Positions 12,901 to 51,715 of a stretch of 64,000 nucleotides of DNA are shown here, one piece after another; within the stretch, counting starts at the first letter, position 1, and the number at the start of each line of letters is the position of its first letter. A model generated the notes under the pieces. That model made no database searches. It saw only the letters and a program-made list of their open reading frames with translations, and had not been told where the DNA came from. Made by a program: the position numbers and the translations under genes. Source of the stretch: Telopea speciosissima (Eukaryota; Streptophyta; Magnoliopsida; Proteales; Proteaceae); NCBI RefSeq assembly GCF_018873765.1, contig NW_025317348.1, forward strand, positions 1,008,127-1,072,126, in the 5' to 3' direction.

Positions 12901-15900
12901 AAGGCGACTCTTGTGATCCTTCGACATTATTGAAGGGAGGGAGGGTATCCGGACATCTAATCCATGCAGGTATGCCAAATGACTTTCTCTTTATAACGAG
13001 GAAGGGAAATGGAATTGAGCAAACGATGTATAATAAGAAGCTTTTGAACGAGGAATGGAGATTGGGAAGTAAGTAAGAAGTGAGAGGGGAGAAGCAAACA
13101 GCACAGCTAGCGTTATAGGCATTAGCTCGAGAGAAGAGAGGGACATGAGCGCGCAAAGCCCTAGCTAATGAACGAAACAGCGCGCGTTACCTTGCTCTTG
13201 AGTTGAGCTGCAAGCTTAGAACTAGGAAAGGCGCAAAGAAAGGCTCTAATCAAGTAGGCACTCTAAAAGAAAGCTTTGAAAGCGGGCAGGCAGGAATGCG
13301 CCTTCTGGAGCTATTCCTTTCTCAACTCATACTTAAAAAGAGAGGAAGACACACTAATAGTACTACTAGAGGGTTGAGGGGGAACAGAAAGACACCTTAA
13401 GTAAGGGAGACTTTACGACACTGCCGCTCGACAACTAGAATGGAAAGCCAAGTTGGCCTTTCTCCAAAACTCCTGGTATGGATTCTTATAAGCAAATAAA
13501 AAACCTAAACCCAAAACTTTGCCGGCTAGTCTGCATTGCTTTCGTCCGCCTACCACCCCTGATTCACCATCCATCCCCTGCTACGTATGAGCGTGACAGC
13601 TGCTCAGGTTCAGAGAGAGTGGTCTTTTAATTAAGTGCAAATTGAAAACTTTGTTTCATCACTCGGTAGAGGAACCTCAACAAGAGAGCCGGTTCTAGGA
13701 TCAAAGACTCTGCTCGCCTCTAAGGTGGTCCAGCACATTCCAGGAAGACGGCAGGGAGGGGATATCGCACCGATCTACACGTTGCTGTGCGTCGCATTCA
13801 CACCCTTATTATTTAGATAGAAATAACCACTATAACCCCGTGACGAGTTCAGCCTAGTCAGTGCTACAACTGGATCAACTAGGACCACCCCTCGAAAACT
13901 AAGCCACACACAACAGAAGACACAAGTCGTTGACTTTTGTTAGGGACCAGATCTACGTAACCAGAGAAGTGGGCGCTTCCCCGCGCGTAACAAAGTCCGT
14001 CCTTCGCGCAACTGCTCGCACTGTTGCTTACCTCTCTTCTGCTCTCTCCACGCGCTCTTCCTTCGTTCGCTGTTTTATAGCGCGCTGCAGAGCGCTATTG
14101 ATAATTTAAGCGAGTCCTATGACGCACCGTGCTAAAGCATAAAGCTTCTCCCTATTCTTGCTCTTACTATTTGAAATCAGTAACCGTCCCTCCGCACCTA
14201 CCAGCAATTCATCTTCAGATTCGGGGTAAAAGGGATCTGTAGGTTCGACTAATCCTGAATCCATAGATAGAGGAGAGGGTCAGCCCGAAAAAGTCCCCTG
14301 TTTTTATTCTTTCTCCGAGACAAACACCTTTAGTTGTGCTCTCTTGCTTCTTTCCGTGCTATTGCTCTCTAAGCAAGCCCACCTTCCGCATCGAGCTGAA
14401 CGAGTCTGTCTTGCCGAACCACCAAGTCAATCGTCAAGCTAGTTTGTTGAACACGGACGAAATAGAACATTAGACTCGTCGAATCGATAAGCCCTACTCT
14501 TCATGCGTAGGAGAAGCAGATTCAAATCCCGTCCCGTCTATACATATGAGATAATATCTTCCTGCCCGCTCGCTCTAATCAAGAGCCAAGACTTTATGCT
14601 CTGCTCTGCGCGCTATACTTTTGCTTTTTACCCGATCCTGGCATAGCGCTTTGCTTTCGGTTCTTCGGAGGAAACCTTACCAACCCGACTTCGTTGCTTG
14701 TGTGCTTGGACATACATAGCCTAACAGGGCCTACAGAAGTAAACCTTTCTAAATGCACACGCTTTACTGTGCGGACGGAAAGCCCTCGATTAATGCCATG
14801 GCTAGAATAAGACAGCTTCGAAGACGAATAATGCTATGGCAAACCCTACAACTCTTTTATCTGCACCCCATTCTTTCCCTAAGAAGAGGGGTTCCACCGT
14901 CAACCTAAGTTAACTCTTTTTGGTACCCCAACTAAAAACTTCTCGTGTACTTCTTGTGTTTACAGCAAGATCTCTATCTAAGTGTTGACATCAAAAGACT
15001 TCCTTACGGCAGAGCCCGCTCTTGATGTAGAGGAATTGCTGGGCGGTTTCCTCAGCTAATTCATAAGCCCTTCTTTCGTTCGATTGCCTCAGCTACTGAT
15101 ACAGATGTTGGCTACTCACAGACGTTCTCATATCATACAGAATCTACTGGAAAGCGTCATGTTGGATGTGCAGATTTAGTTGAATATTCATAAGTAGCAG
15201 GGTACCTGTTCTTGAGTCATATCTGCTGTCTCGACTATAAACACTATTTCCAATAACCAAAAATGTGACAATGAAGTCCAAGCTTCGCTAAACGATACTC
15301 AATAGATTCACCCTCTCCTGGAACAAGATCTCTAGGTTTACCAAATCCTCAACCATAAAAGGAATGATTTGTGAAAGGGAGCGTTAAGTAAGGTCAGGAA
15401 TCCTAAACAGAAGGAGCGGGTACCGGTCCCTCCGTATCAGAATAGGCATCCAATAATCTGGTAGTAAACTAAACAACAAGGGAATGTATTTTCCACTTCC
15501 TAGGTAAGACTAAGTAGGGGCGAACGAGCTTCTCATGTCAATACTCCCATACATCATGATCAGTTCGTTCGAAAGGTCGAGCAGCAGCCTCACTTGGAAA
15601 AGAAATCCTGTCCCTTGGTTTGGTTGTTCTGGCCTTGCCATCGAAAGCACGGTTTCAGAAATGCTTTAGTTAATACCGCTCCGTGGGCTTCGCATGATTA
15701 GGATCAATCAGAACAGCCTCACCTGCCCTGGAAAGCGGATCTGCTGATGGTTAGGTGGTTAGCGAACATCGCCTTTCTCATCTAGGACTTAGACCTGTAC
15801 ACCCGCATCTTCCTCTTACGTGAAGGTATGTCATGCCCCGCCCTAACTCATATCTTCCTTCCTCTGGGACATTGGTGAACTTGAAAAGTACTCCTATCCG

Positions 15901-16154
15901 CTTGTAGAGAGTCTTTCTCCGACCTTTGAAGTTGAACACTTTCTCAATTGTGAGCTGGAAAGTGAGTCTGAAGCGAGTTGGTACGGTCTAGGGCTTCCGA
16001 TTTACAGGCTATGAGCCAACTCTTTCATAATCGTTCGAAGAAGTGGCCCAAGAAGGACCGGCTTACGAGTAAGTAGTACTAAAGTCTGTTGGTAGGTAGG
16101 GTTAAGTTGTTGAGGGGGAACCCCGCCTCTATAGTAAGTAAATAAAGCATATGT
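6907..16154. other. 9 kb spacer with decayed repeats, no recognised gene
   Basis: No reading frame here matches a family I know. A plus-strand frame near 10583-10828 (TTG start, 81 codons) has one hydrophobic stretch but no other support. Phrases such as AATGAAAGCC recur at about 9208, 9271, 9515 and 9583, and polypurine/polypyrimidine runs with many TAG-rich words dominate 9-12.5 kb. This looks like old duplicated mitochondrial spacer that has lost its original sense. Confidence 0.45.
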
Positions 16155-16335
16155 GAAGTGGCTTGTCACTTTGTAAGAGAAAAGGTCACAAGTGGACTGA
16201 TTGAAACACCCTATCTACGAAGTCAAGATCAACTAGCAGACATATTTACTAAAGGAGCGGGAAAGGATCGATTCCAACTCATGGCTGGCAAGCTTGGAAT
16301 GAAAAATCTCTATTCACCAGGTTGGTCGTAGATCA
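16155..16335 (+). pseudogene. Ty1/copia RNase H C-terminal fragment
   Basis: The frame EVACHFVREKV ... ETPYLRSQDQLADIFTKG ... LMAGKLGMKNLYSP is the classic C-terminus of plant Ty1/copia polyproteins, where the QLADIFTK motif ends the RNase H domain. It terminates in TAG at about 16328. Upstream the frame is lost (a 2-nt disturbance near 16152), and no reverse transcriptase is present. Just downstream, AGTGTAGGAG followed by TGTTTCAT could be a polypurine tract and LTR start. This is a nuclear transposon scrap inserted in mitochondrial DNA. Confidence 0.8.
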
Positions 16336-16992
16336 TAGTGTAGGAGTGTTTCATATTTTTTGTTTTGTATATAGAACTTCGCTATGTAAATAGAGGGCCG
16401 GAATCCATGCGACACCCTAACCTAAAATGAAATGAATGGATTAAGGTGAAAGTGTTATCAGGAGACGAAGGGAATATGAAGTAGGAATTTTCTCTTCAAA
16501 TTCTTGTTTTACCGTGATTTTCGCCGTCGATCAATTTCAAGAGCAGGAAATCCTGTTTTTAGTTCAAATTCTTGTTTTACCGTGATTTTCGCCGTCTTTT
16601 CCCGGCTTCGCGAGACCATAAAGGTCTACTCTTGGCTAAAAAGGGCGGAGCTTTCTCGATCTACTAGATGACTGAAGAGCATCAAAGAATAGGCAAGCCT
16701 ATCATTGGGCAAAGCTGTGGTAGAACCTGGTGAACCGGACGTAGTGTACTCTCAAGCGAAAGGGACCCCTTTCCCACTTCCCTTTCCCCGCCCCTGAAAC
16801 GGAGCGGGCCTCGCCTTTTTTTATTTTTAAGGCTACCCCATATCATAATGGAAAGGCTTTGCGTTATTTCAAAAATATAACTTTTTTAAAAAGTGTCAAA
16901 TGTAAACTCTTTCCATGCATCATAGGAAAGGCAAAGCGCTTTCTTTTAAGAATGCATCTGCCGTTCTCCTTCCATGCGTCCTCCAACACTTT
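16336..16992. other. spacer downstream of the Rep-like ORF and copia scrap
   Basis: No gene is seen. The start may include part of a copia LTR. It holds a 34-bp direct repeat (separate entry) and an A/T-rich stretch at 16800-16900 just beyond the 3' end of the minus-strand Rep-like ORF, which would form its 3' untranslated region. Confidence 0.4.
16495..16596. repeat. 34-bp direct repeat pair, 68-bp period
   Basis: An identical 34-bp word starting TTCAAATTCTTG and ending TTTTCGCCGTC occurs at 16495-16528 and 16563-16596. Such short repeats are substrates for rare recombination in plant mitochondria. Neither copy lies in a gene. Confidence 0.85.
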
Positions 16993-18348
16993 TTAGTCGC
17001 GGTTTCGCTTGAAATCTTTGAATTTGGCTAAAAGTAGGGGAAAGCCGGGGTTTTTTTTATTATTCACCCAGGGCTTTACCAAATCATATTTTGTATCAAT
17101 TTCTCCCTTCGTGAGACCGGGATGATCTAAGCCAAGAAGGTCAATGATCCCCCTTTCGGGAATGTATGCATAGTTAGTTTTTTCTGGATCAAATCGATCT
17201 AGGCTTCCATAGAAAGCCTGAACAATTTTATTTATCCACTCTTCTTTTTCAGGACCATTAAGAACCCTATTCTTTTCTGCCAATTCTATTTTCAAAGATT
17301 CCTTGTCGGAATCGGAGGATTCAGGAGTAAAGAAGAGTTCTTTTTCTGAATCTGTCTCACTGGAAGGGTGACCTTCCAAAGAAGTGGAACCCGAAGTAGA
17401 TGCAGACGAAGGCGTGGATCCTTCCGCTGCCGCCGCGGGCTGCCCCTGGGTTGGCGCCGATGGAATTTCTTCCCCGGCCGGGGTAGGAGACATCAAGAAT
17501 CTCTCGACCTCGGAAGCAGTGAAGGGGCGCGAATACCCCCCTTCCCGCGAATCCATTGCTAAAGCGAGAGGTTGGCAGGCATAAATCAAAAGGAAGAAAA
17601 TAATGAGGATCATTATGAGGCTTATTTTTGAATGATTACCATCACCCCCATTTATCTTAATTTTAGTGGACGGGTCAGAGCCTTTGTTGCACTCTTTGAG
17701 GGTCTCCTCGTGGATAAAGCGTCTCGTTGACCCTTCTAAGAATGTCGGATCAAATAGCACTTCCCCTAACGGAATCCTATGGCTTGATTCCCGGGTTTCA
17801 GCTCTTTGGTGTCTCCTCCTAGCGCGGGCCGTTTGCAATATTGCCTCCCGCTCCAATTCACCCCAAACAACGAGTTCTTCCTCCTCTTTTGTGATGTATT
17901 CACAAATCGTTCCCCACCCTTTGTGAAATTTCAGGTCAAGTTGGCTTCCCTCGAATTCAGGGAACGCCTTCCTTAGGACTTTAGCCGCAGTATGCTTTGA
18001 CGCACTGCTGTTCAAAATCCCCACATGGAAGTGGTATCCCCCTTCCGCGTGGTTTTCCCTGGCCACAACTATAGATGTACAATTTAAGCAGTCTCTCATT
18101 CTGTCTATCACAACCTGTTGATCCATCGCTCGCTCATTATTCCTTTTTTCGACATGACTCAAAGTAACCAGTAGATATTTTCTTATATGCTGCTTACTGC
18201 CTGGATAGTCCGCTGATGTCTGTTTCTGCCTTTCCATGAATCTGTTCCGCTCTAATGCCTTCGTCTTCTCCCACTTAGCGTTAACATCTGAACTCGTTCC
18301 AATACCAAAGAGCCCCAATGCCTTCCCCTTCCAGTTATTGTTTGTCAT
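16993..18348 (-). CDS. HUH endonuclease (Rep-like) fused to membrane segment
   Basis: An intact 451-codon ORF. Residues about 55-160 carry the three motifs of a rolling-circle Rep endonuclease in the right order and spacing: motif I at 59-66 (LLVTLSHV), motif II with the metal-binding pair H106 and H108 (YHFHVG), and motif III with the nucleophile candidate Y151 and K154 (CEYITKE). Enzymes of this class nick one strand at an origin and stay joined to the 5' end through the tyrosine. No Walker A or SF3 helicase follows, unlike CRESS-DNA virus Reps. Instead come an Arg-rich stretch (170-190), one hydrophobic segment (about 243-264), a Ser/Thr/Ala/Pro-rich linker (about 270-360) and a charged C-terminus. 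ATG at 18346-18348 is the first start and matches the MTNN start of the divergent copy at 19618. Intactness beside so much decayed DNA suggests recent arrival or constraint. Function in the organelle is inferred. Confidence 0.75.
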   Translation of the reverse strand: MTNNNWKGKALGLFGIGTSSDVNAKWEKTKALERNRFMERQKQTSADYPGSKQHIRKYLLVTLSHVEKRNNERAMDQQVVIDRMRDCLNCTSIVVARENHAEGGYHFHVGILNSSASKHTAAKVLRKAFPEFEGSQLDLKFHKGWGTICEYITKEEEELVVWGELEREAILQTARARRRHQRAETRESSHRIPLGEVLFDPTFLEGSTRRFIHEETLKECNKGSDPSTKIKINGGDGNHSKISLIMILIIFFLLIYACQPLALAMDSREGGYSRPFTASEVERFLMSPTPAGEEIPSAPTQGQPAAAAEGSTPSSASTSGSTSLEGHPSSETDSEKELFFTPESSDSDKESLKIELAEKNRVLNGPEKEEWINKIVQAFYGSLDRFDPEKTNYAYIPERGIIDLLGLDHPGLTKGEIDTKYDLVKPWVNNKKNPGFPLLLAKFKDFKRNRD

Positions 18349-18942
18349 GATTTGTTTTTGTGTTTGTGATGTCGGGGTTTAGCTATGAATCGTCGTTAAA
18401 TCCAATCCTTATCCTTTCGTTCGTTCAACCGGGGCCTCCTTGAGCGAGGGGGGTGTAGGCCCCCCCGAGGAACCCGCCTCTTTAGGATCTTTATGATCAA
18501 GACGGTTTCCTTTTGTTTCGATTTGTTAGGAAATCTCAAGGGAATCTCCCAGCCATTCCGGCCCTTGCTCCTTTTATTAGCCGCAGGAAAATATCTGCTT
18601 TTCTTACGCAATTTCGCATTTTGCCTTTTTCCTTACTGTTACCTTCGGGGGTATAAGGGGGTAACCGCTGTAGATGGACGAGGACGATGATTCATTGGTC
18701 GTTCGGTCACTACCTCGTATGCTACGCCTAACCCCCCTATGCTTTTTGGGCTACGGGTTATAGCTAAGGAGACATTGGTTAAGTTTGTTCAATAAACCAA
18801 CTAGAGATGAACGCATCTAATTTAATTCATCACAAACGACATTACGCGCAAATGAAATCAAGACTGACTTCTGAAGGATAGAGCCCTTTTTGGGTAGAGT
18901 ACAAAAGAAGAATCCCGGAAACAGTCACGGAACACTCGCACA
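18349..18942. promoter_or_regulatory. intergenic region upstream of Rep-like ORF
   Basis: This stretch lies between the minus-strand Rep-like start and the plus-strand small ORF, so it must hold any promoter for the Rep-like gene. It contains a GC-rich potential hairpin at 18431-18466 (separate entry). I did not find a canonical CRESS-type nonanucleotide origin (TAGTATTAC or TAATATTAC) on either strand. Confidence 0.3.
18431..18466. other. GC-rich potential stem-loop upstream of Rep-like gene
   Basis: GGGGGG at 18448-18453 can pair with CCCCCC at 18460-18465 around a 6-nt loop. Alternatively GGGGCCT at 18431-18437 can pair with AGGCCCC at 18457-18463. A hairpin about 85 nt upstream of a Rep start is where an origin could sit, but the loop does not carry a known nick site, so a plain mitochondrial 5' UTR hairpin is as likely. 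Confidence 0.35.
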
Positions 18943-19245
18943 ATGTCACAATTCAGAAAAAGCAATTACGACTGGAAATACCGACGCGGGTTCGGGGGTC
19001 GTCCCTTCGGGCGCAAAGGAACCAAGGGCAAGCCTTGCGGTCGCATATCCCTAGCGAACCAACCAGGGGATTGGCAGACCGGTAACCAAGACATCGAAAT
19101 CTCCCTCACTTACAATGTAAGGAAAGGGAAGGTCTTCTCTCAAAGAGTCATTCGATTCAGTTCATCATGTAAGGTTCTGTTATGCCTATCAAAGGATTAT
19201 ACCCGTCCTTGCGCCTTACAAGAGCGGATACTTAGGGGTTGCTAG
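18943..19245 (+). CDS. small basic ORF (100 codons) between Rep-like copies
   Basis: I do not recognise this protein. The first 45 residues are rich in Arg, Lys and Gly (RRGFGGRPFGRKGTKGKP), suggesting nucleic-acid binding, and a short stretch with beta-strand propensity (IEISLTYNVRKGKVFSQRVI) follows. It lies between the divergent Rep-like ORF and the truncated Rep copy and points the same way as the latter. The start is an ATG at 18943. It may be a real accessory gene of a captured replicon or a chance frame; composition and position are the only support. Confidence 0.3.
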   Translation: MSQFRKSNYDWKYRRGFGGRPFGRKGTKGKPCGRISLANQPGDWQTGNQDIEISLTYNVRKGKVFSQRVIRFSSSCKVLLCLSKDYTRPCALQERILRGC

Positions 19246-19617
19246 AGCTGTCTCACTAGATTCGCTATGGTGGTCTTTCACAAGAGGTAAGGTTACTGTA
19301 GTCCAATGCCAGTAATAGTCTTTTCATTGTAGGGTAAGGCCATAGTTGATAGAAGTCGCGGAATATGAGATGGTCATGACGTAATAAAGCTCCCGTTATT
19401 GGTGTTGGACAGAGAGGACAATGGGGGGTGCCCCTTTCAGGGTTTCCGCTCTAAAGTCTACTGGTAAGGGAAACCGCTCTAATAATGATAGACAACAGAG
19501 CGAGTTCTTCAGGAGGTAAAAAGAATGCCCCTCGCTCCAAGGTGACCCTCAGGCAAACGAAAAAAATATTAACTAACGAGAATAATAGGGCTGCTCGACA
19601 TAACACAGAAAAACAGC
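19246..19617. other. spacer upstream of truncated Rep copy
   Basis: No gene is seen. The sequence is purine-rich towards the ATG at 19618 and would be the 5' leader of the truncated Rep copy. Confidence 0.35.
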
Positions 19618-20007
19618 ATGACAAACAATTCTAAAAAAATTGTCCGAACCTTACCCGGTTTGGTAAGGAACTTCTCAGACAGAGATGCGAGGATTAAGGA
19701 GATGAAGGCAAAGGAATTAGCACGGATTAGTTGGGACGAAAGAAAACCTGTATCAAACGATTCGGCACTGAAGCAGCATATTAGGAAATTTTTGTTGATC
19801 ACACTAAGTCATGTTGAGAGAAGGCAGGACAGGGGTATAAATCAGCAGGTCGTTATAGAAAAAAGAAAAAACTGCTTTAATTGTACATCCATCGTCGTCG
19901 CCAAAGAGAACCATACGGAGAATGGATACCACTTTCATGTAGGAGTAATTAATAGCAGCGCATCGAAACATACAGCAGCGAATAGACCAGAAAAGGCGGG
20001 AAGCTAG
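19618..20007 (+). pseudogene. truncated HUH Rep-like copy lacking motif III
   Basis: This 129-codon frame is a divergent copy of the N-terminus of the Rep-like ORF at 16993-18348. It keeps the MTNN start, motif I (KFLLITLSHVE), the NCTSIVVA block and motif II with both metal-binding histidines (YHFHVG), then the shared SSASKHTAA stretch. Immediately after that the similarity stops and the frame ends within nine residues, so the catalytic Tyr/Lys motif III and everything beyond are missing. It cannot nick DNA as it stands. The two copies are head-to-head, about 1.27 kb apart. Many differences are conservative replacements, so the split from the other copy is not recent and the frame was probably constrained before truncation. 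Confidence 0.75.
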
Positions 20008-20040
20008 GATCTAAGAGTGAAGCTAGGAGCTGGAAAGTAG

Positions 20041-21340
20041 GGGGGAGGGGGTTATGAGGAACTATAGGTTTTTTTTAGCAACCGATAATTATCAGCTGCA
20101 AATTCTCCGCTGTTATAGTATCCGCTGTTGAGCCCCTTCCATCACCGAAGGCAAAGCAAGGAAACAGACAGTTGAGCTAACGGCCGGGGGTTTGGGGGCT
20201 GGCCCCCATGCCTAAGCCTAACAAAGAATATCTCTTTTATCCTTTCTAGCATCTAAGCCTTTCTTCGCCTACGGGGTCATTTAAGGAATCATGCTACTTC
20301 AAAGAATAACAAGGAAGCTAGACGAAGTCCTGCAAGTAAAGCATTCTAAAAGAACTCCTTAAGCCTTCCCTTCTAGCAAATATCCCTTCCATGACCGAAG
20401 GCTTTCTAGGAATCAAGCTACTTCAAGAAGGCCCATAACAAGGGAGCTGCGTACACCTTAATGGCTTGTAATAAAGACTCCTTTCCTTTTCTGCTTCTAT
20501 AGCGTATCACCCTTAGTTTGCCCACGGTGATTTAAGGTTATGAAATAAATGAGCGAAGCGAAATTAATAGGGCTAGTGAAAACCAGCTAATAACAAGGCG
20601 GCTAGACGAAGTCAATGCCGCCTTAAAAGCAGTAGAAAGTCTCTTCCTTAATCCTTATCTAGCATAGAACCTTTAAATAGCCGAAGGCTAACCTAAGGTT
20701 ATGAAATAAATGAGCGAAGCGGGCTACTCTACTGATAACAAGCTTCAAACCAGGACGAAGTCTAGCACGTCTTAGAGCAGTACTAAAAGAACTCCTTCCG
20801 TAATCCTTTGTAGCGGATAACCCTTCAATTTCCGAAGGCTAAGAAAGGAATGAAGCTACGTAGCTCGGAGCTAGGAGCTATGAGTGAAGGAGTTAGAGCT
20901 ATAGAAGAAGCCCCTTCTATGACCGAAGGTCAAGTAAGGAATGAAGCTACTGAAACCGGTGATAACAAGGCAGCTAGACGAAGTCAGGCACGTAGCTAGG
21001 CAGTGGAAAGTCTCTTATAGTCTCTAATCCCTTATAGCATCTTTCTCTTCCTTTTCCTACGGTGATTTAAGGAATTAAGGTACTTCAACCAAGCTTCAAA
21101 CAAGTGTCAGTGTCGTAGCTAAAGCAGTAGTAGAACAAGCTACTAACAAGGGAGCTAGTCCCAAAAGCCTTAGAACAAAGAGCTGTGGAGCTAGGAGCTA
21201 GAATGAGTTAGAGTTAGAGCCTTAAAGCAGTCCCCTTCTATTACCGAAGCCCTTCTGCGTCTAAGGAACCAAGCAAGGGAGTAGGCAGGCTGTCTGAGCG
21301 GAGCGAGTCAGGAAGTCAAGTAAGCAGTCGGAGCGGAGCG
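20041..21340. repeat. decayed tandem array, unit about 150 bp
   Basis: At least six diverged units recur. Each contains AACAAGG followed by AGCTAGACGAAGTC or a variant (near 20308, 20437, 20592, 20737, 20964 and 21145), a downstream AAAGAACTCC or AAAGTCTC word, and a CCGAAGG word followed by AGGAAT(G/C)AAGCTAC. It carries no coding sense. The spread of variants says the array is old. A GC-rich phrase ending GGGGGNTNNCCCCCATGCC appears at about 20190 and again near 21352. Confidence 0.6.
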
Positions 21341-22549
21341 GGCTAGGCGCGGGGTTTGGGGGTTTCCCCCATGCCTTCCAACCAAGAGAAAGTCTTTCTG
21401 GTCGGAGAGGGGTAAGATATAGTCTTCCCTGACTTCTAGGAGAGAGCGAGTATATGTGGTGCTGCAACCGATACGACTGCAACCGATATCTATCCGCTGT
21501 ATCCGCTGCTGTGCTAGGAGTTAGCAGCTAGGAGTAAGGACAAGTAATTCATTAAACCCCTAACCATACCTCAAATGAATTAAAAGAACTCACTCATAAG
21601 AATCGAAACCGCAGGAGCTGTTCTTCGAAGAGCAGGGGAGCTACGAAGCTATGAGCTAACTCAGGGCAAGAAGAAGAAAGAAACCCGAAGGCCCATGTTC
21701 TTATAAGAGCTGGAAAGCCCCCCTAGGGGGAAGGCGAAGCAAGGGGGGAAAACGTTCCATAGATAAGTGATAAAAGTCGGAGAATGAGCTGCTAAATCGG
21801 ACGATGCAGTAAGGGGTACAGGTGCAGATAATGGTGCCAATAACCGAATAGTAGAGCCTACTACGGAGAGAGAGATAGGGGAGAAAGACCAGTATCTGAT
21901 TCACAGTTACAGTTCACTAATACTACTTTCTTCTAGTACCCATCCCATACGGGGTATTTATTACACTATTAAGAGACTCGGGTTCACGCTAATTCTCTTT
22001 AATCGCCTTCAATCAATAGAGATAGAGAAGAGAAGAGAGAGGTCGGGGCTTCTAAGATCAGATCGGATAGAGCTCGAGCTTCCCCTCATCCTCACATTCC
22101 AGCCCTTAGGTTGGGCCCCACTATTGCAATAAGGGGTTGGCCTCTTAACAAAACCATCCCAGTTAAGATCAGAGCCTTCATTTCTTTATTGATGGCATAC
22201 AATACGAGAGACTGGTAAGAAGAGAATCGATCAGATCTGAATAGAAAGGAAAGAAGGGGATAGGTATTTCTCATTCCGTCGTATCGAATAGAGGAGTAAC
22301 AAGGATTCTCTAGCATCGGGAATGGGGGGGTATCCAATCCAGCCCAACCTTTACGGGAGAGTTTCCCATTCTAGCTATTCATACCAGAGGGATGGGAAGC
22401 AAGCACCCCTACTGGAATCTTGGGCTACTATTATCGGGGATTGGTGAAGCTTGGGGAAACAGAGCCATCGATATAAGTAGTTATTACATATGTAATAGAA
22501 CCTGCTCATTAATAAAGGGCCCTCGATCCATTGATAGCTTTATCCTTGG
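21341..22549. other. spacer, no gene seen
   Basis: Short frames only, with no recognisable motifs. Composition resembles the neighbouring decayed repeats. Confidence 0.4.
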
Positions 22550-29321: not shown

Positions 29322-31097
29322 ATGACAATCCATTCTATTGTTATTCAAAAATTACTGAGTACGAACGCACATCTAGGCCGTCGGGTAGCTGCTCACCATT
29401 TCAAAGTCTATATCTGTGGTTCCAGAAATGGAATTGCTATTCTCGATTCAGATAAGACACTGATTTGTTTACGAAACGCTTGTCATTTTATAGGATCTCC
29501 CATTCGTCAAAAAGGCCGTTCCTTCTTTGTAAATACCAATTCGTTATTCGATGAGATAATAGAACAAATGGCGACGAGAATCGGCTGTATCAATGATTCT
29601 CAATGGAGGATCGGGGGGTTTTTGACCAATTGTTCAAGTCCGAAAAAAATCCGTTCGAGAAACAAGAAGATCAATTTCGGGTCGAACCAACAACCAGATT
29701 GTGTAGTTATTTTTGATGCAGATAGAAAGTCCTCGGTCATACTTGAAGCTGATCGATTACAAATACCTATTGCATCTTTAGTGGATTCGAATATCCCATT
29801 GGGATCCTATAAAAGAATCACTTATCCCATTCCAGCGAATGATCCTATACAGTTTGTATATCTATTTCGTAATTCGATCACGAAAACAGTTCTTCTTGAA
29901 CGGGGAAGAATCGTTGCGATGAAGGAGACTGTGGGAGAAGAAAAAGCTCATAGACCAGAGCTACTACAAGCACTTTTAGATAAAGGGGGGTTAACTAACG
30001 AAAGAAAGATGGAACTTGTTCCCCACCCAGGAATAAAACCACATTTCCTTGCTACTAATCAATTTAGGCGCCCTTTCATCCGGGAATTTAGGTCTACCCC
30101 TTATTACTCTTCCCCACTCGAGCTCTTCGAGGCCGTCGCCCCATTCCTCAATGCTGTTAGCACTTGGGCTGGAAGTTCGATGGCGAATGGTGTATCGGGG
30201 GTGACAGATGGAAATGTGGGGGCTAATAGTCTGCCGGGGGCGGAGGTGATTCCTAGTTCCGGAACGACTTCAACGGGAATACCACCCCTGCTCTCCCTAC
30301 AGATCCCAAAAGGGGGCCACGGCCACCTCGCTTCTCTTTTTTTTGATAAAGACCTGGTGCCCGACCGGTCTTCTCTGCCTGAACAAAGCGGAAAAGTGGT
30401 CACGACCGAACCGCAAGTTGACCACTCCAGTACCGCTACTCCGGGAGCATCCGCTGCTCATAACTGTTTTGAAGAAGGGTGGGTCGAGAGCGAGAGAACC
30501 CGTCTGAACGACTTCCTTCAGACGGAACAAGACCTTTGGGGAGCACCTCAACTGCCAAGGTCCCCCTCTCCCTCCAATGATTCCCAAAAGCTGTTAGACG
30601 CTTTTATTGCGCAGGAGACGGAGGTGCTTTCTACTGAAAGGACCACTGCAACAAAATCCCCACCCTTTGGTGGCCCTCCGGCTCACGAGGCGTCCCCGCC
30701 CCCGCCCCCGCTAGCGCCAGCACCGGCGGAAGTACCCCACGCCCCCCATAATTTTGACCCCAATTTTCCGGAGAAAGAGATTGGAGGAGAAACCCCTTCT
30801 CAAATCTATAACAACCTGGTCATCGCTAGCTCGTCGAAGAGAAGACCTCCTTCGCTTGATTTGCAAATCTTTAAAACTTGCGCTATCTTTGAGGGCAAGA
30901 GCAAAATACTCCACAAAATGAATGACCTTGATCCTGGTGGAGGCTGGCTTACACGGGGGGCTAAAAGAATAAGAAATAGGATGGGGAATGAGTTTTCCCC
31001 GGATACTTTGGGTGAAATCCTCCAGGATCTCGAACGTAGTGGCACCGGGAGCTCCCACTTTAAGTATTTTTTCAAGAGAAGAGACCAGGGATTCTAG
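29322..31097 (+). CDS. rps2: mitochondrial ribosomal protein S2 with long C-terminal extension
   Basis: The first about 195 residues are a full S2 domain of the plant mitochondrial type (start MTIHSIVIQKLLSTNAHLGR, then CVVIFDADRKSSVILEADR and IPIASLVDSNIP). S2 binds the small ribosomal subunit of the mitochondrion. The ORF then runs another about 395 residues with no S2 homology: a stretch rich in Ser, Gly and Pro, a run of prolines near residue 460, and a charged C-terminus. Long processed extensions are known for plant mitochondrial RPS2, so this is family-typical rather than a fusion error. The ATG at 29322 starts exactly at the conserved N-terminus. C-to-U RNA editing may alter some codons. 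It is the only clear housekeeping gene in the window. Confidence 0.95.
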   Translation: MTIHSIVIQKLLSTNAHLGRRVAAHHFKVYICGSRNGIAILDSDKTLICLRNACHFIGSPIRQKGRSFFVNTNSLFDEIIEQMATRIGCINDSQWRIGGFLTNCSSPKKIRSRNKKINFGSNQQPDCVVIFDADRKSSVILEADRLQIPIASLVDSNIPLGSYKRITYPIPANDPIQFVYLFRNSITKTVLLERGRIVAMKETVGEEKAHRPELLQALLDKGGLTNERKMELVPHPGIKPHFLATNQFRRPFIREFRSTPYYSSPLELFEAVAPFLNAVSTWAGSSMANGVSGVTDGNVGANSLPGAEVIPSSGTTSTGIPPLLSLQIPKGGHGHLASLFFDKDLVPDRSSLPEQSGKVVTTEPQVDHSSTATPGASAAHNCFEEGWVESERTRLNDFLQTEQDLWGAPQLPRSPSPSNDSQKLLDAFIAQETEVLSTERTTATKSPPFGGPPAHEASPPPPPLAPAPAEVPHAPHNFDPNFPEKEIGGETPSQIYNNLVIASSSKRRPPSLDLQIFKTCAIFEGKSKILHKMNDLDPGGGWLTRGAKRIRNRMGNEFSPDTLGEILQDLERSGTGSSHFKYFFKRRDQGF

Positions 31098-32020: not shown

Positions 32021-33064
32021 ATGATTATGAAGTTCCTACTAGAGAAGTTTCGTAAATATATGAGTAATCTATTGATCAATAACACTGATCACCGACTTGG
32101 AGAAAGAGAGAGTAGTATATCGTTTTTTCGTGGTCGTCGTATAGATTCGTATCTAAACCCATATTATGAAATGAATCGTGGTGTACCTCTATACACGCGC
32201 GAGCAGCTTAAAAGTGCGGAACAAACAATTGAAGTGGATCGAGTGATACGCACTCTGGGCAGGCTTAGAGTAAGATATGGTGCTGAATTTGTAATGCTAA
32301 TATTGGAAGAGGCACGTCGAATGAGAGATCGAGAGCGGGTGGTCGAAATAGCATCTACGTTGAGACAGCGGTTTTCCCCGTTCCCTGCTGGTGACTACCT
32401 TTCATTGGCTGAAGAGCGCTCTTTCATTTCAGGTATAGTAAATCAAGCTCTGGAGAGGGATAGGTGCAGGGCTAACTTACAACCACATAACGTCATACGG
32501 CCTCAAAGAGAGCCATCAGTAGTCTCAACTACTGTGATTACTCATGACGTGAGGACGCATCCTCCCGAGCATCAACCACTTATCCCATTCTCCCGGTCCA
32601 CGAGGATAGGATGTGGGCTTCCTCTAATAGCTGATAAATCGTCGTCTGGTACGGAGACCACAATACCGTCTGGTACGGAGACCACAAATCCCTTTGGCAC
32701 TTTCCGGGTACTCGTACCAGTCTTCTGTGTTATTTCTAGTGTGTGGCTCAAATATACGCCAATAGAACTAGCCGATATGATAAGTCACACGGGGAACTTA
32801 TTGGAGTTAAATTGGGTTAGAGAGCTGCTTGGGTATGATGCCACAGGCACTGAAATTGTAAACCCTCGGGCTATATCCGAGGCCCGTCGTGTGGTGGAAG
32901 AAGTAGTATCTAACGAATTACCTGACCCGATCGTAGATGAATTCATAGTAAAGAATCTTCGGGAGGGGTCAGCACATAGGAGTACCTTGCTGCTGGGTGG
33001 TCTCCTCATTGCATTCATAGTACAGGGGGCTATGGGAAATAACAACATAACAACTAACCCATGA
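32021..33064 (+). CDS. unknown plasmid ORF with C-terminal membrane segment
   Basis: I do not recognise a family. The ATG at 32021 is preferred over the in-frame TTG at 32003, giving 347 codons. The protein has a charged helical N-terminal half (many Arg/Glu), a short duplication SGTETT(I/N)P coded by two 21-nt repeats near 32644-32690, a hydrophobic stretch at about two-thirds (FRVLVPVFCVISSVW) and a C-terminal hydrophobic segment (TLLLGGLLIAFIVQGAM). Its stop overlaps the start of the DNA polymerase by four bases (ATGA), so the two were probably co-transcribed. By position it may be a plasmid accessory or terminal-protein-related gene, but the sequence does not prove that. Confidence 0.55.
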   Translation: MIMKFLLEKFRKYMSNLLINNTDHRLGERESSISFFRGRRIDSYLNPYYEMNRGVPLYTREQLKSAEQTIEVDRVIRTLGRLRVRYGAEFVMLILEEARRMRDRERVVEIASTLRQRFSPFPAGDYLSLAEERSFISGIVNQALERDRCRANLQPHNVIRPQREPSVVSTTVITHDVRTHPPEHQPLIPFSRSTRIGCGLPLIADKSSSGTETTIPSGTETTNPFGTFRVLVPVFCVISSVWLKYTPIELADMISHTGNLLELNWVRELLGYDATGTEIVNPRAISEARRVVEEVVSNELPDPIVDEFIVKNLREGSAHRSTLLLGGLLIAFIVQGAMGNNNITTNP

Positions 33065-35019
33065 TGAATTTTCAAAGATATTGGTATAAGTTAATAAGTT
33101 TAATTTCTAATACTAGTTATAAGTCCCCTTATAAGGGATTGAGAATTGCAGAACTTACATTTAGAGAACCATACGTACTATGTATTGATTATGAAATAAT
33201 AGCATTAGCTGTCATGCTACTCTTATTGAAGTGCGCTTACCCTACAGGTTCATCTTATGGTAAGTTTACCATAGGATATATTATGCGTATTCCGCCATAC
33301 AAAACCTCTAAAGTTAAATTTAGAAGTAAAGATACAATATCATATATAATAGGTAACTCTATACCTTTAATAGATAAAAGTGGTAATATGAAACCTAACA
33401 TGGATGTCTATGCTCAGATTTTAAGATATATCATCCAAAAAGGTGAGGAAGACCCTAATAATGTGCTTACAGGTATCTTCATTCGAGTCTATCTCAATGG
33501 TGATCAGGAATCTAGTGAAATAGAGTTGCCTCTGAGCTACTCTGAAATAGGTGATCTAATCGAGCAATTAAAGGAAGCCGGCGTAGGTAGTGATGAACCT
33601 AGAGAGGTACAAGTAATAGGGCAAGGTAAGAAGCATTATTACAAATATATAACAGCACTCAAACCGAAGAGTAAGGTTAAAAGGAGGCCTTTCATTGTAG
33701 CCGATATAGAAACGGTTCTAGTCGATGACAATCATGTACCTTACGCTGTGGGTTTCTTAGTGGTCCGGCCGGGTGAAGATGTAGCTTCCATACCTTATTA
33801 TATGTTAGAAACCTATTTCAGTGAAGATCATAAGTCTTTTATACCTAAATTTGAGGATAGGAGTAATAGAATTCTATATCTCTTTTTAGAGCGTATAGAA
33901 GCAGTTGTGAAACAAGATAAATCAATTCGAAGTATTTACTTCCATAATTTATCACGATTCGATGGTATTATATTAATTAAATATTTAGCTTCAAAAGGGG
34001 AAAGGTATAAAATAAAACCTCTTTTGAGGAACCATCAATTATATAAGTTATCAGTGTATCTTGGAAAGAAACTCCTCTTCACTTTCAAAGATTCATACAC
34101 TCTGCTTCCTAATAGTCTGGCTTCATTGTCCAAAACATTATGCCCGGAATTAGGTTCGAAAGGTTTCATCCCACATGACGAAGTGAAAGTGTCAAATCTT
34201 CTTGATAAGAGTGAAGAATTGTTAGAATACATGAGACAAGATATCCGTCTCTTAGGTGGTGTTATGCTTAAGGCTCAAGATATTTATAGGAGTCAGTTTA
34301 ATGTTGAGATCGAGAAACTCTTGACAATATCAGCGCTAGCTCTTTCAATCTATCGTACGAACTATTACGATCAAGAAAGTAGTCCTATCCATATACCAAG
34401 TAGAAACGAAGATAGTTTCATTCGGGGTGGTTACTATGGAGGTCATGCGGATGCATATATACCATATGGTGAGAATTTATATTATTACGATATAAACTCT
34501 TTATATCCTTATATCATGAAAGAATATCCTATGCCGGGTGGTAAACCTGTATGGCAGGGTCATTTGGAGGACCAGGATTTGTCCTCCTTGTTTGGATTTA
34601 TTGAGGCATATGTAGAGTGTCCTAGTCATATTAATCGACCTTTCCTCCCTTATAGGGATAATAATAATACATTAGTTTTCCCAACTGGTAAATTCGTAGG
34701 TGTCTATTATAGTGAAGAGTTGAAATTTGCCCGCGATTTGGGATACAAGATTATACCACTAAGGGGGTACTTGTATGAGAAGAAGATAAGTCCATTCGAT
34801 AAGTTTATAACAACCGTCTACGGAAACAGACTAGAAGCAAAGAAAAGAGGTGATGATGCTATGGTATATGTGTACAAGATACTAATGAACTCGTTGTACG
34901 GTAGATTTGGTATAAATCCTGAAAGTACTATAACTAAAATATGCGATAAAGAGGAATATGAATCTTATTTTTTAATGGATGATTTTATTTATGGGGATAA
35001 ACTGAGCGATAAATATTAA
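33061..35019 (+). CDS. dpo: family B DNA polymerase, plasmid type (5' part, ends at in-frame stop)
   Basis: This part encodes the exonuclease and most of the palm of a protein-primed family B DNA polymerase of the kind carried by linear mitochondrial plasmids. Exo I is seen as VADIET (about residue 213), Exo II as HNLSRFDG (about 296), Exo III as YMRQD (about 390), Pol A as YDINSLYPYIM (about 476) and the Pol B motif as KILMNSLYGRFG (about 610). The frame ends at TAA 35017-35019, after Pol B and before Pol C, so this part alone cannot polymerise. The same frame continues after the stop without a shift. Codon use is much richer in A and T than in rps2, fitting a transferred plasmid. Start ATG 33061 overlaps the upstream ORF. 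Confidence 0.88.
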   Translation: MMNFQRYWYKLISLISNTSYKSPYKGLRIAELTFREPYVLCIDYEIIALAVMLLLLKCAYPTGSSYGKFTIGYIMRIPPYKTSKVKFRSKDTISYIIGNSIPLIDKSGNMKPNMDVYAQILRYIIQKGEEDPNNVLTGIFIRVYLNGDQESSEIELPLSYSEIGDLIEQLKEAGVGSDEPREVQVIGQGKKHYYKYITALKPKSKVKRRPFIVADIETVLVDDNHVPYAVGFLVVRPGEDVASIPYYMLETYFSEDHKSFIPKFEDRSNRILYLFLERIEAVVKQDKSIRSIYFHNLSRFDGIILIKYLASKGERYKIKPLLRNHQLYKLSVYLGKKLLFTFKDSYTLLPNSLASLSKTLCPELGSKGFIPHDEVKVSNLLDKSEELLEYMRQDIRLLGGVMLKAQDIYRSQFNVEIEKLLTISALALSIYRTNYYDQESSPIHIPSRNEDSFIRGGYYGGHADAYIPYGENLYYYDINSLYPYIMKEYPMPGGKPVWQGHLEDQDLSSLFGFIEAYVECPSHINRPFLPYRDNNNTLVFPTGKFVGVYYSEELKFARDLGYKIIPLRGYLYEKKISPFDKFITTVYGNRLEAKKRGDDAMVYVYKILMNSLYGRFGINPESTITKICDKEEYESYFLMDDFIYGDKLSDKY

Positions 35020-35895
35020 AAAGTCTCTTACGTTAGCAATAAAGTAGATGTAGCCGACTCTGAGTGGAATCCACCCCGGATATCGGCTGTTCAATTGTCC
35101 GCTGCTATTACTGCTTGTTCTCGTATTCATATGTACCCATTCATATCCAGACCCGACTGTTACTATACGGATACAGACTCTGTAGTTCTAGGAAGTCCTC
35201 TTCAAGAAGATTTAATCTCTTCCACGGAATTGGGTAAGTTCAAGCTGGAGCACAAAGTCCACAAAGGTTACTTCTTAGCACCTAAGGCTTATGCCTTAGA
35301 CATGGGCCATGATGACCCTATAATTAAGTATAAGGGTCCTGCTAAAGGCTCTGTCAATTTAGATTGGTTTGTGTTACAATACAAGGATCCTTCTCTAATA
35401 AAGGTTGTCGACATTGATTCGTCATTCAGTATAAATTGGCATACACTTGAAATAGGCAAAAAGGAGTCCCAATACCGCCTGGGAACCCCTGCGAGTTCCA
35501 AAAGAGACCCTGTGTATGATGAGAACAATAAGTGGATAAACACACTACCTAAAGAAGTAATTGACTTTTGTGGTCAAGATAACACTATTCTCAAATTAGT
35601 GTTAAAAGAAGAATCTATATATAGAGAGCTGTTAACCGAAAAAGATCAGGAAATCGTCAAATTAAAGCAAGAATTACATAAAGTGCTTGCCTATAAAGAG
35701 CAAGATGTTGCTAAACATCAATCAATGAACCCATCCTCGGATGCTGCTGCTAATCTTCCTGATGCACCGCGCACTGAATCTCCAACCGTATTAGACCAAC
35801 CTACTCTGTACAAGGACCCACCCAACAAGGTGAATAAAAAGAACAAGGTGAATAAAAAGAATGCTAAGAAAAAATCAAAGGATGATGATACCTAA
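35020..35895 (+). pseudogene. dpo: family B DNA polymerase, 3' part after in-frame stop
   Basis: Directly after TAA 35017-35019, in the same frame, the polymerase goes on. Pol C appears as YYTDTDSVV at about 35161-35187 with the catalytic DTDS. It is followed by the thumb region, a short coiled coil (EKDQEIVKLKQELHKVL) and a Lys/Asn-rich tail with a KVNKKN duplication. The first possible internal start is TTG 35095. A single base change would account for the break, so this is a very young pseudogene, a readthrough case, or a sequence error. C-to-U editing cannot remove a TAA. Confidence 0.8.
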
Positions 35896-46438: not shown

Positions 46439-47415
46439 TTAAACATGATATTTCTTGAGTTGGTCCATATTCGTCAAATAACGCAACTCTTCCCCATCAA
46501 GATCCACCAATCTGACGGCTTTTCCGGGAAGAATTTCTGTGATGGTAAAGGGGCCACTCCAATTAGGCTTGAACTTGCCCCGTGGATCATGAAGGGGTGC
46601 CCTCTGTTCTTTCAGCACTAGGTCTCCAACTTGCAGCTGTCGAGGGTGAACCTTTTTGTTAAATGCTCTAGCTACCCTGAGTTGATATTTATTAGTATGG
46701 TCTAGAGCACGCATTCTTTTTTCATCAATAAGGTTCAATTCCTCATATCTTCTCCTGAGCCATTCTGCTTCAGGGATCTGGCTTTCCATGAGGACCCTTA
46801 AGGAAGGTACCTCCAATTCGACTGGAAGGACTGCTTCCATCCCGTAAACCAAAGAATATGGCGTTGCCCCAGTAGAGGTTCGAATGGAAGTTCTGTAAGC
46901 CCATAATGCGTACGGAAGTTTATCAGCCCAATCTGTGTTTCTTTCGGCCATCTTCTCCAGGATGCGCTTCATGTTCTTGTTCGCAGCTTCAACTGCCCCG
47001 TTGGTTTGTGGTCTGTATGGCGACGACTTGTGTCTCTGGATCAACAATTTGTTGCATAATCTTTCCACTTGCCCCTGGCAGACAAGCTACCTTGATCCGA
47101 GATTTGTTCTTGAGGCATGCCGTGGCGGCAGATGATATTCTCTTTAAGAAACTTTGCCACCTTGGCTGCTGTGAGCTTGGCATATGACTGTGCCTCAACC
47201 CACTTGGTGAAGTAGTCGACGGCCACTAACACGAACTCATGTCCATTAGAAGCTTTGGGGGTGACTTTTCCTATAACGTCGATACCCCAGGTTGCGAATG
47301 GCCATGGCGAACTGAGGGTGTATAATTCTGAAGGAGGTACACGTATCAAGTTTGCAAAGACCTGACATTTATGGCATTTCTTCACATATTCTGCACAATC
47401 TGCTTCAGCGGGTAT
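46439..47415 (-). pseudogene. integrase of the Tat-type element
   Basis: The zinc-binding region begins in the preceding frame (CGPHMSARMLAKKV) and after a shift reads CAEYVKKCHKCQ. The DDE core follows: GIDVIG for the first Asp, SDQGS for the second, and after another frameshift near 47070 NGAVEAANKNMKR for the Glu. The C-terminal domain (GDLVLKEQRAP, KFKPNWSGPFTI) ends at 46439. Two frameshifts make it inactive. Confidence 0.88.
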
Positions 47416-50338
47416 TCCAATAATACCCTAGTCTGAGTACCTTCTTTGCAAGCATCCTTGCACTCATATGGGGTCCGCATATATCCTGGTGTATTTTATC
47501 CATGACGGTTTGTGCCTGTTCTTCATCAACACATAATAATTGTATCCCGTCGTAGGATCTCTTGTACAGGATACCTTCGAGGAGAATGAATTGTGTTGCA
47601 TATCTTCTCTGGAAGCGCCTCTCTTGTTTAGTGGCCTCTTCAGGATACTTCTTTTCCTGGATATAATCCACGATGTTAGCATACCATGGTCGACCATCTA
47701 TTGTAAGAGCATTTATCTCATGGTAAGCTGGTTGTTCTCTTTGCTCCACAACGAATGGTCGAATACAATCATTTGGGTTGGCATCGACCATGGAAGCTAA
47801 GGTTGCCAATGCATCTGCAAAACGATTGTAATCTCTCTGGTAGTAGTCGAATGAGATGCTATGAAATTGTTGCGCAAGACTCTCAACGTACTCTTGGTAT
47901 GGTCTCAACTTTTCATCTCTGGTCTTCCACTTCCCTTGCATTTGGCAAATGACAACTGATGAATCTCCATAGACCTCTAATTTCTGGATTCCGATTGATA
48001 TGGCCGCCTCTAAACCTATGGCACAAGCCTCATATTCTGCTATGTTATTTGTACAACCTAAATTGAGCCTGAATGCCAAGGGTATATGAGATCCATCTGG
48101 TGTTATCAGAAGTATTCCTGCTCCATATCCCCTTTGATTAGCTGCTCCATCAAAGAATAACTGCCAAACCCCTACTGATTCAGTGGTTTCAATGTTAACG
48201 ATATCTTCATCCGGGAAAACGTCCTCTAGGGGTCTGGTTTCAGGGATTGGATGGGCTGATAGATGATCAGCGATGGCCCTACCTTTGATAGATTTTTGTG
48301 TGACATGCTTGATGTCAAACTCTGAGAGTAATAGGAGCCATCGAGCGAGCCGCCCTGTTAGCGCTGGTTTCTCAAATAGGTACTTTATTGGATCCATTCT
48401 GGAAACCAACATCACAGGATGGGCAAGCATGTAATGTCTCAGGCGCTTCGTAGCCCATATTAACGCTGCACAAGTCTTTTCCAGGGCTGTATATCGTTCT
48501 TCGTATCCAATGAATTTCTTGCTCAAGTAGTAGACGGCTTGTTCCGCATGTCCTTCTGGACAATGCTGGGCCATCATTGATCCCATTGATGTCTCTGTGA
48601 CTGATAAATACAGCAATAGGGGTTGCCCAGTAATAGGTGGCATCAAAACAGGCGGATTAGTCAAATATTCCTTGATATGATCAAACGCCTTTTGACACTG
48701 TTGATTCCATACTTTGGGTTGATCTTTCTTGAGTAATTTGAAGATAGGCTCACAGACAGTAGTTAGTCGGGAGATAAATCTGCTGATGTATTGAATCCTC
48801 CCTAGGAAACCCCTTATTTCTTTCTCCGTCTGAGGAGGAGGCATTTCTCTTATAGCCTTTATCTTGGAGGGATCTACCTCTATGCCCCTCTCACTTACCA
48901 TGAAGCCTAGAAGTTTTCCTGCTGTTGCCCCGAAAACGCATTTCTGGGGGTTTAGCCTTAATTGATATTCTTTGATCCTTTCTAGAAACTTTCTAAGAGC
49001 TTCCACATGCCCCTGCCTAGTCTTTGACTTGACAATCATATCGTCAACATAGACTTCCACTTCCTTATGTATAAGGTCGTGGAGTACTGTGGTTGCTGCT
49101 CTTTGGTAGGTTGCCCCAGCATTCTTGAGTCCGAATGGCATCACCTTGTAATGAAATGTCCCCCATTGTGTGATAAAGGAGGTCTTTTCTTTATCCTGGG
49201 GTGCCATTATAATCTGGTTATAACCCGAGAAGCCATCCATAAAAGATAGGAGTGCGTGCCCTGCCGTGTTATCGACAAGGATATCGATGTGTGGTAATGG
49301 GAAATCATCTTTAGGGCTTGCTTTATTCAGGTCCCTAAAGTCCACGCACATTCTAACTCTGCCATCTTTCTTTGGGACGGGTACTATATTGGCCAGCCAT
49401 TCTGGGTATTCAGAAACTTCTAATAATCCTGCGCGGAGTTGCTTTATGATTTATTCTTTTATCTTTAGAGTCCACTCAGGCCTCATACGTCGAAGCTTTT
49501 GCTTGACTGGTCTTACATCCGGGTACAAAGGAAGATGGTGTTGGACAATATCTGAGTCAACTCCTGGCATATCTTCATAAGACCAGGCGAAGACTTCTTC
49601 AAATTCCTTTAAGAGTTCAACTATTTGGGAAGTTTCTTGCTCAGAGAGGGATGCCCCAACCTTAATTTCTCTTGGCTTCTTAGCTGATCCTAGGTTAATA
49701 ACCCTAGATTCCTCAAGAATTGCCTGTGCTTTCTTCTCTTTACTTTGTTGGATTAGCTTAAGGAAATCTGGCAAAGGGTCATCATCATTTCCATCCTCGA
49801 GCGAGGGTGGCTGAGAAGAAGAAGAAAGAGAAGGAGTGGAAGAGGAAGAGGCAATATACGCAAAAGGAACTTGCTTATTGATGCTGGAAAGATTTACATT
49901 GTAAAGAGTATTTACAGACCCTGACAAAGGAGGTACAGACTCTATGGACTGGGACTTGGTACTAGGTCCGAGCTCTGCTTCACTTTGATCCGCTTCTCTA
50001 GCTATTTCCTGAAAATGATAGTCATCCATGGTGTTCCAGTTGGGAATGGTTCCGTGGGCCGGATGAATCAGTAGCTGTGGGTTCATTCTTATTTCTTGCT
50101 CTACTGAGAGCATGGCTACCTCCTCCCCGAAGATTCCCTTGGTGCCCAGATCTGTTTCGCTCTTTTGCCAATCTTTGTCGAGCTTTTCTTTCCTGAGGGA
50201 TGTAAGCTCGAACCAGTCATATTCATCTGCGAAAAAGATTTCGAAACCAGGGATTAATTCTTTTGTATCTGGATCGAACCAAGGTTGGGGGAATCCACAG
50301 TAAAGGTGCGAAAGCCGCTTCTTGAATGAACTGTCCAT
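47405..50338 (-). pseudogene. pol: reverse transcriptase and dual RNase H of the Tat-type element
   Basis: After an acidic linker the frame reaches TAA 49451-49453, then goes on in the same frame. RT blocks are MCVDFRDLNKASPKDDFPLP, FMDGFSGYNQI, MPFGLKNAGATYQR and the active site VYVDDMIVKS. RNase H follows (YLSVTETSMGSMM, YEERYTALEK). A second RNase H of archaeal type comes next: FFDGAANQRGYGAG, NNIAEYEACAIGLE, YGDSSVVI and RFADALATLAS, with all four acidic positions kept. The frame ends at about 47405 inside the integrase zinc-binding region. Apart from the stop it is well preserved, implying recent capture compared with the other remnants. Confidence 0.9.
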
Positions 50339-51688
50339 TTAAAGTTCTGGGGTAAGGGGGAAATTCATTTACCTCTCCTATCTTTCCTTTGTCCTTTCGG
50401 AAGAACCTGTCATCTGCAAGCTTCTGCCTCTTTGCCTGATTATCTAGATCTTCTTGAGTCGGAATATACCCTAAACCATACCTTCCCTCATTATGGTGAA
50501 GGTCTGGTATGGTGAGGATCCCCTGCTGTCTCTTTCCTAGGCCCATTCCAGGAAAGTAGTTCATCAGCCTGAACATATTAAGAACGTTGGTGTTCGGGCT
50601 GTGAGGAAGCGGGATTTTCTCCTGGGGAGGGTCGTGGATGTATGTTGCACAGATTTGTTCTAACCGGAACCCACTCAAATATACATCAGGATCTGCCGAG
50701 GGAGACTGGGAATTGCTCTCTTCTATGTTGGCCAAAGTGTTGACCAATTCTGGATCGGCTGTCACGGTAACAATCCTACCATTGTGTACAAACTTGAGTT
50801 TTTGATGCAGGGTTGATGGTACCGCGCCTATCTCATGGAGCCATGGCCTTCCAAGAAGCATGTTGAAGGAAGAAGGGATGTCAATCACTTGAAAGTCGAC
50901 CGTAAAACTAGTAGGCCCAACAATAATATCTGTCGTGAGGATTCCTAAGTACTACGTAGTAGTAGTAGTACTTAGCTTCGGACTCCTTGTGTAGAGGGCT
51001 TAAGGTTCATTGGATCAAATCCCAGAAATTTTACTGTTCTCAATGGGCAAACGTTCAGAGCCGAACCATTGTCCACCAAGACTTGTGGGACTCGATTTCC
51101 GTTACAGTCAACTGTGATGTATAATGCCTTGGCATGATCCATCCCTTCTGTAGGTAATTCTGTTTCCGAAAACATGATGGAATTCACCGCGTAGACTGCC
51201 CCTACTATGTGTGCCAGTTGCGCAGGGCCTGTTTCTACGGGAACATAGACTCGAGTCAGGGCTTTCAAGACTATGTCTCGGTGTGCCTGTGATGCCATGA
51301 GCAATCCCCAGATGGATACATTAGCTTGAGTCTTCTTTAACTGCTTTATTACTTCATTCTCTGGCTCTGGTAGTGAACTACTGCTGACACCTTGGTCTTG
51401 AGTGGCCAAATCTCTTGGTCCTCTCACTGCTAAACTTGATGGCTTGAAGGCTTTTCCACTTCGCGTCCCAGATTCTATTGGGTCACACTCAGAGTCTGGC
51501 GGCCCAAAGTATAATTCTGTATCGAACTGGGCAGCGAGGTTTTCTATTTCCAGATCCTCATCCTCATCTTCCCCGTCACTGATGAAGATGGTACTGATTA
51601 GGGGAAGGATAAGGATAGAAGGATCAACTGATGCTTTGTCCTCTTCCATCATATTAATTGTATGAGGTGGGGCCAGAGGATTAGTCAT
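50223..51688 (-). pseudogene. aspartic protease region of the Tat-type element
   Basis: The first part (51688-50972) ends in the protease active-site block (PQVLVDNGSALNVCP, with DNG in place of DTG or DSG). After a frameshift with a palindromic insertion at 50946-50974, the protease flap and C-terminal part continue (IDIPSSFNMLLGRPWLHEIGAVPSTLHQ, a signature of Tat proteases). A G-patch-like stretch follows (GMGLGKRQQG). The polyprotein would be cut by this enzyme; here it is inactive because it is split. Confidence 0.75.
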
Positions 51689-51715
51689 GACGTTCGCCGG
51701 ACGACTACGGCGTAC

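Follow-up and report, generated by a model that had tools for sequence, protein, structure and literature searches.

Within a 64,000-nucleotide stretch of the Telopea speciosissima genome (the window: positions 1008127-1072126 of contig NW_025317348.1, called C12 below), we found a chimeric open reading frame (ORF), ORF A, that joins an HUH endonuclease domain of the replication initiator (Rep) type to a transmembrane (TM) segment and a Ser-rich tail. ORF A is probably the captured Rep gene of a rolling-circle replicon of the circular Rep-encoding single-stranded (CRESS) DNA type, a mitochondrial plasmid or virus-like element, and is now a chimeric relic. We also regard it as likely that ORF A is one of several remnants of a Rep family in the Telopea mitochondrial genome, with an HUH nicking domain that is still complete. 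Positions given without a contig refer to the window.

Architecture of ORF A

ORF A runs on the minus strand from 18348 down to 16993, from ATG to stop, in 451 uninterrupted codons, as a preliminary description of this DNA had stated. When 64 kb of the same make-up was simulated 60 times with a first-order Markov model, no ATG-initiated ORF exceeded 198 codons. The HUH domain covers residues 53-166 (17851..18192, minus strand), and the three Rep motifs of the preliminary description can be read directly in it. Motif I, LVTLSHV (residues 60-66, 18151..18171; LVTLSH at 60-65), lies on strand 6-13 of the structural model; motif II, HFH (residues 106-108, 18025..18033), contains the putative metal ligands, aligns with HLH of PDB entry 6q1m and lies on model strand 53-60; and motif III, YITK (residues 151-154, 17887..17898), aligns with YITK of 6q1m, lies on model helix 93-103 and includes the putative nucleophile Y151.

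The similarity to Rep relatives stops near residue 197. The superfamily-3 helicase is absent from ORF A, and the TM segment and tail follow the HUH domain instead. An Arg-rich stretch (13% R, residues 165-240) is followed by a single TM segment at residues about 241-263 (17560..17628, minus strand; Kyte-Doolittle 19-residue maximum of 2.56, with all 19-residue windows above 1.6 beginning at 237-249), then by a Ser/Pro-rich region (21% S and 10% P, residues 264-350). Composition and hydropathy thus agree with the Arg-rich stretch, single TM segment and Ser/Pro-rich tail described earlier, and the missing helicase was likewise correctly noted. A tail module at residues about 295-451 (16993..17466, minus strand) is 76.5% identical at the DNA level to a second C12 locus, L003 (506 alignment columns).

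Rep identity and possible sources

The comparisons of the domain with Pfam, PDB sequences and known folds were concordant and shuffled controls gave no such matches, so a chance similarity to Rep was rejected. In the model, the domain has the predicted fold of viral and plasmid Rep nucleases, and its motifs follow the layout of the HUH superfamily, with motif I on strand 1, motif II on the central strand, and the Tyr of motif III, together with a Lys, on a late helix.

A bacterial or phage source was rejected: tblastn with ORF A as the query returned nothing from phages and, from plasmids, only 11 places in Rhizobium, with E values of 1 or worse, annotated as RraA or racemase genes or not at all. 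PHROGs and NCBIfam contained no Rep-like match. Scans of viral and genome contigs found no confirmed relative; as each scan looked for exact matches to just two to six short peptides, we attach little weight to this.

A truncated paralogue and past selection

A second Rep gene lies at 1.27 kb from ORF A; the preliminary description missed it, as it did the Rep remnants in other parts of the genome. This paralogue, B (19618..20007, plus strand, 129 aa), is truncated at its 3' end; motifs I and II are present and motif III is absent. A and B share 51-53% over residues 1-128, and in a core of 70 codons the amino acid identity rises to 73%. Within this core, the proportion of nonsynonymous differences (pN) is 0.139, while that of synonymous differences (pS) is 0.88, at which the synonymous rate (dS) is saturated and not estimable. 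First, second and third codon positions account for 12, 8 and 41 of the differences (chi-square P 1e-7); the two alternative frames are 35-36% identical and contain stops. Residues 1-51 are far less conserved (pN 0.53). The Rep domain has been under purifying selection in the past, although the A/B comparison is uninformative on present selection on A and on the time since the fusion.

The silent rate of angiosperm mitochondrial DNA (mtDNA) is very low. Because such saturation is hard to reach in mtDNA of this kind, the sequences suggest that A and B probably diverged outside it, in a replicating element, and were captured separately. A copy on C5 spans 18138-20580 at 97.5%, and its B is interrupted by stops. 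Between A and B there is also a 100-aa ORF with a basic N-terminus (18943-19245, plus strand), which matches no Pfam family.

Rep remnants elsewhere in the genome

A search of the 823-Mb genome with ORF A as query yielded 18 matches, of which 15 are to the Rep part and three to the tail. When A and its identical repeat are set aside, all 13 other Rep matches are partial and eight contain stops. One on C12 (L010, C12:859558) has HYH and YLIK in two frames, and its two pieces matched no Rep family in Pfam; in another on C3 (L013), HLH is present and a stretch of 50 residues matches PF00799 (E 0.015).

The most informative remnant for the lost half of the protein is L009 (C12:334964), of which C126 carries an identical copy. 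Its HUH pieces, in separate frames, have HYR in place of HYH, and they are followed, again in separate frames and as read by eye, by LFLYGEPSTQKT, YYDLWVFDEFHE, VPIIMIANE and FQERFMRLRLF, which we take to be the motif order of superfamily-3 helicases. The L009 piece matched neither phages nor plasmids. Its 216-aa piece, used as a genome query, gave 18 matches, 14 of them on other chromosomes. Twelve nuclear pieces were compared with the available stretches of C12. Seven (L011, L015, L023, L027, L029, L031 and L032) show 89-98% identity with the L009 locus and were read as transfers out of mitochondria. L013 (74%) and L014 (79-80%) are not close to the C12 stretches, L047 and L051 match C12 in their flanks only, and L050 not at all.

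Among the matches of the L009 piece, a second helicase type (L025, L024, L028) is found on chromosomes only. In L025 (C11:28673174), a Rep helicase piece and a cytochrome b piece (PF00033, E 6.9e-18) form a single open frame; L025 gave 0.036 for AAA, 0.093 for Parvo_NS1, and 3.6e-4 over about 30 residues for AAA+ P-loops. An ORF that looks petB-like by eye adjoins this L025/L047 fusion.

Source of the TM stretch and tail

The DNA of the TM stretch (17460-17760) was found nowhere but in the two copies of the A-B locus. The tail recurs in L003 (C12:526744), where it sits in a frame of 184 aa, taking TTG as the start, which overlaps another ORF; the 3.6-kb locus gave no Rep match. An additional tail piece lies on C3 (L014). 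Over residues 355-451, A and L003 have a bootstrap median ratio of nonsynonymous to synonymous rates (dN/dS) of 0.39 (0.20-0.75) and a dS of 0.52. By the Rep-free copy and this ratio, the tail is a separate module that was once constrained. Since L009 keeps helicase motifs and the tail occurs without Rep on C12, the loss of the helicase and the gain of the tail look like recombination. On the same two observations, the membrane-tethered nickase of the preliminary description is not supported as a purpose-built enzyme.

The dS of the tail is large for angiosperm mtDNA, as if the tail had diverged in a faster-evolving element, and could thus mean that the protein came with its full Rep-TM-tail order from a mitochondrial plasmid or virus rather than from mitochondrial recombination. 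We consider this very improbable, as the 3.6 kb around the L003 tail gave no Rep match, and in the broken Rep relative L009 the HUH part is followed by helicase motifs instead of TM and tail.

The constraint on the tail might instead reflect a chimeric ORF of the kind associated with cytoplasmic male sterility, in which the TM segment and tail matter, acting through the membrane, and Rep merely provides the N-terminus. TM-bearing chimeric ORFs are usual in plant mtDNA, and C12 has other hydrophobic, chimeric-looking ORFs, for example at 53274-53915 and at 1122-1724 of L003. Such a role seems quite unlikely to us: no other copy of the TM stretch was found, and the Rep core, with its pN of 0.139 against saturated pS, is conserved far more strictly than the role needs. 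The ORFs at 53274-53915 (minus strand) and 1122-1724 of L003 seem to start as sdh3 does and then to run on into a hydrophobic segment and a different tail; their upstream regions share 91% DNA identity across 363 columns.

Mitochondrial setting

C12 (1,435,540 bp) carries cox1 in two copies, which in our own reading are of the plant mitochondrial type with codons that require editing, in line with the preliminary assignment of the window to mtDNA. The A-B locus is duplicated on C12 at a distance of 403.5 kb and is 100% identical over the 6,501 bp compared. Besides this large repeat, the region of cox1 and the tail recurs at a distance of 197.7 kb; part of this repetition may be assembly overlap. 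An intact cox1 also lies at 157 kb of the chromosome contig C9 (L033, C9:156956-158299); it is strongly unlike the C12 gene, and we take it to be fungal or otherwise foreign from its look.

The window also holds rps2 (29322-31097, plus strand; PF00318, E 5.3e-27) in a 591-aa frame with a very long C-terminal extension. Retrotransposon-like ORFs (46439-52989, minus strand; 58297-59238, plus strand) show reverse transcriptase, RNase H and integrase motifs by eye.

Relic or working nickase

The ancestral protein would most likely have been a two-domain Rep in which Y151 nicked the origin, H106 and H108 bound the metal, and the helicase unwound the DNA. Fragments of such genes were then probably captured into mtDNA, where recombination would have joined the 5' half of Rep in frame to the TM stretch and tail module, with loss of the helicase half. 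In-frame chimeric joining is frequent in plant mtDNA. If it is produced, today's protein could do no more than cut and religate single-stranded DNA at the inner membrane; it could not unwind it.

We think it most likely that ORF A has become a chimeric relic that plays no part in replication. This ranks above a working nickase, given that the tail is also present where there is no Rep match, that all other copies are partial and that no origin turned up. The interval between A and B has one weak inverted repeat only. At 19312 (minus strand) a single sequence fits NANTATTAC; it has no stem, and by our own estimate about one such match is expected by chance. With regard to a CRESS circular replicon, the copy is a chromosomal one with no TATTAC-type stem-loop in 15000-22000, a free replicon not having been sought.

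Several results weigh against a captured Rep gene that has become a relic. The Pfam scores of ORF A are under the curated cut-offs (18.7 vs 27.8 bits, and 17.2 vs 24 bits for PF00799, the geminivirus Rep catalytic domain). PDB profile searches from two alignments gave no match, although Pfam, PDB sequence and fold agree and uphold the HUH assignment made earlier. Only one of five AlphaFold2 models was good (72.8; the remaining ones 40-48), and a longer construct of residues 45-190 was poorly modelled (45.6). B by itself has no Rep match in Pfam or PDB; the Walker A motif of L009 bears Q at a position that is usually G, and Pfam gave no helicase family on the L009 pieces. In 15000-22000, three plain stems of 8 bp were found, and their loops are not of the TATTAC type. 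ORF A has kept every catalytic motif, which argues for a working nickase over a relic and leaves room for a bolder reading, and an intact A beside 13 other, partial Rep matches, eight with stops, also fits a retained function.

The bolder reading is an active HUH nickase, tethered to the inner membrane, that initiates rolling-circle or recombination-dependent replication by cutting mtDNA or a plasmid and borrows a host helicase. The three intact catalytic motifs in 451 codons, set against the decay of the other copies, and the predicted HUH fold are in its favor, and rolling-circle replication is reported to have been observed in Chenopodium album in the available part of PMC6843274. We nevertheless consider it unlikely: no origin-like element was found near ORF A, the adjacent paralogue is truncated, the occurrence of the tail without Rep makes the fusion look incidental, and selection, measured between A and B only, is uninformative for the time since the fusion. 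More far-reaching still, and a long shot, is that plant mitochondria hosted a CRESS-type replicon lineage of their own and kept one Rep, without helicase and anchored in a membrane, as the nickase with which rolling-circle or recombination-dependent mtDNA replication begins, the missing initiator of that pathway.

Significance and comparison with known systems

HUH and helicase Rep remnants on a plant mitochondrial contig indicate that plant mitochondria once hosted a Rep-based replicon or were reached by one repeatedly. We know of no nicking initiator for rolling-circle replication of plant mtDNA. For this reason, and because such replication has been proposed for plant mtDNA (available part of PMC6843274), the intact mtDNA-encoded HUH domain is a concrete, testable candidate initiator, though we think a relic likelier.

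Rep-like sequences occur in plant nuclear genomes, and ORF A resembles them as a Rep captured in a plant; those are nuclear, whereas the whole-domain copy here is on a mitochondrial contig. One Rep-like gene in Populus is apparently listed in a table in the accessible portion of PMC3198968. For plant mtDNA, no report of a Rep gene was found in the open-licence literature. The earlier statement that no such system had been described is thus nearly right for plants, but a truncated Rep in Phytophthora mitochondria has been published (PMC3198968). According to the accessible portion of that paper, the mitochondria of P. sojae and P. infestans carry a truncated Rep-like gene that is nearest to Porphyra plasmid Reps and was read as an integrated plasmid.

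The mitochondrial plasmid types named in the available part of PMC9389341 are linear with DNA or RNA polymerase, circular with DNA polymerase, and retroplasmids, with no Rep-based rolling-circle type among them. In the window, two ORFs (33061-35019 and 35095-35895, plus strand) apparently represent one split B-family DNA polymerase of the organellar/viral kind (PF03175, E 3.8e-96 on the first) and are apparently the remnant of a mitochondrial linear plasmid. This remnant and ORF A are both plasmid-type replication genes integrated within one window, although the former is a B-family polymerase and the latter a Rep.

ORF A shares its nuclease domain with the Reps of geminiviruses and other CRESS-DNA viruses (PDB 6q1m, 6we0 and 7vg8), but their in-frame helicase half is not in ORF A, which differs further in its location in mtDNA and its C-terminal TM segment and Ser-rich tail. 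The Phytophthora gene, as far as the accessible portion of PMC3198968 describes it, is that of an oomycete and has no TM-tail fusion; compared with ORF A by its description rather than its sequence, it is likewise a truncated Rep remnant in mtDNA.
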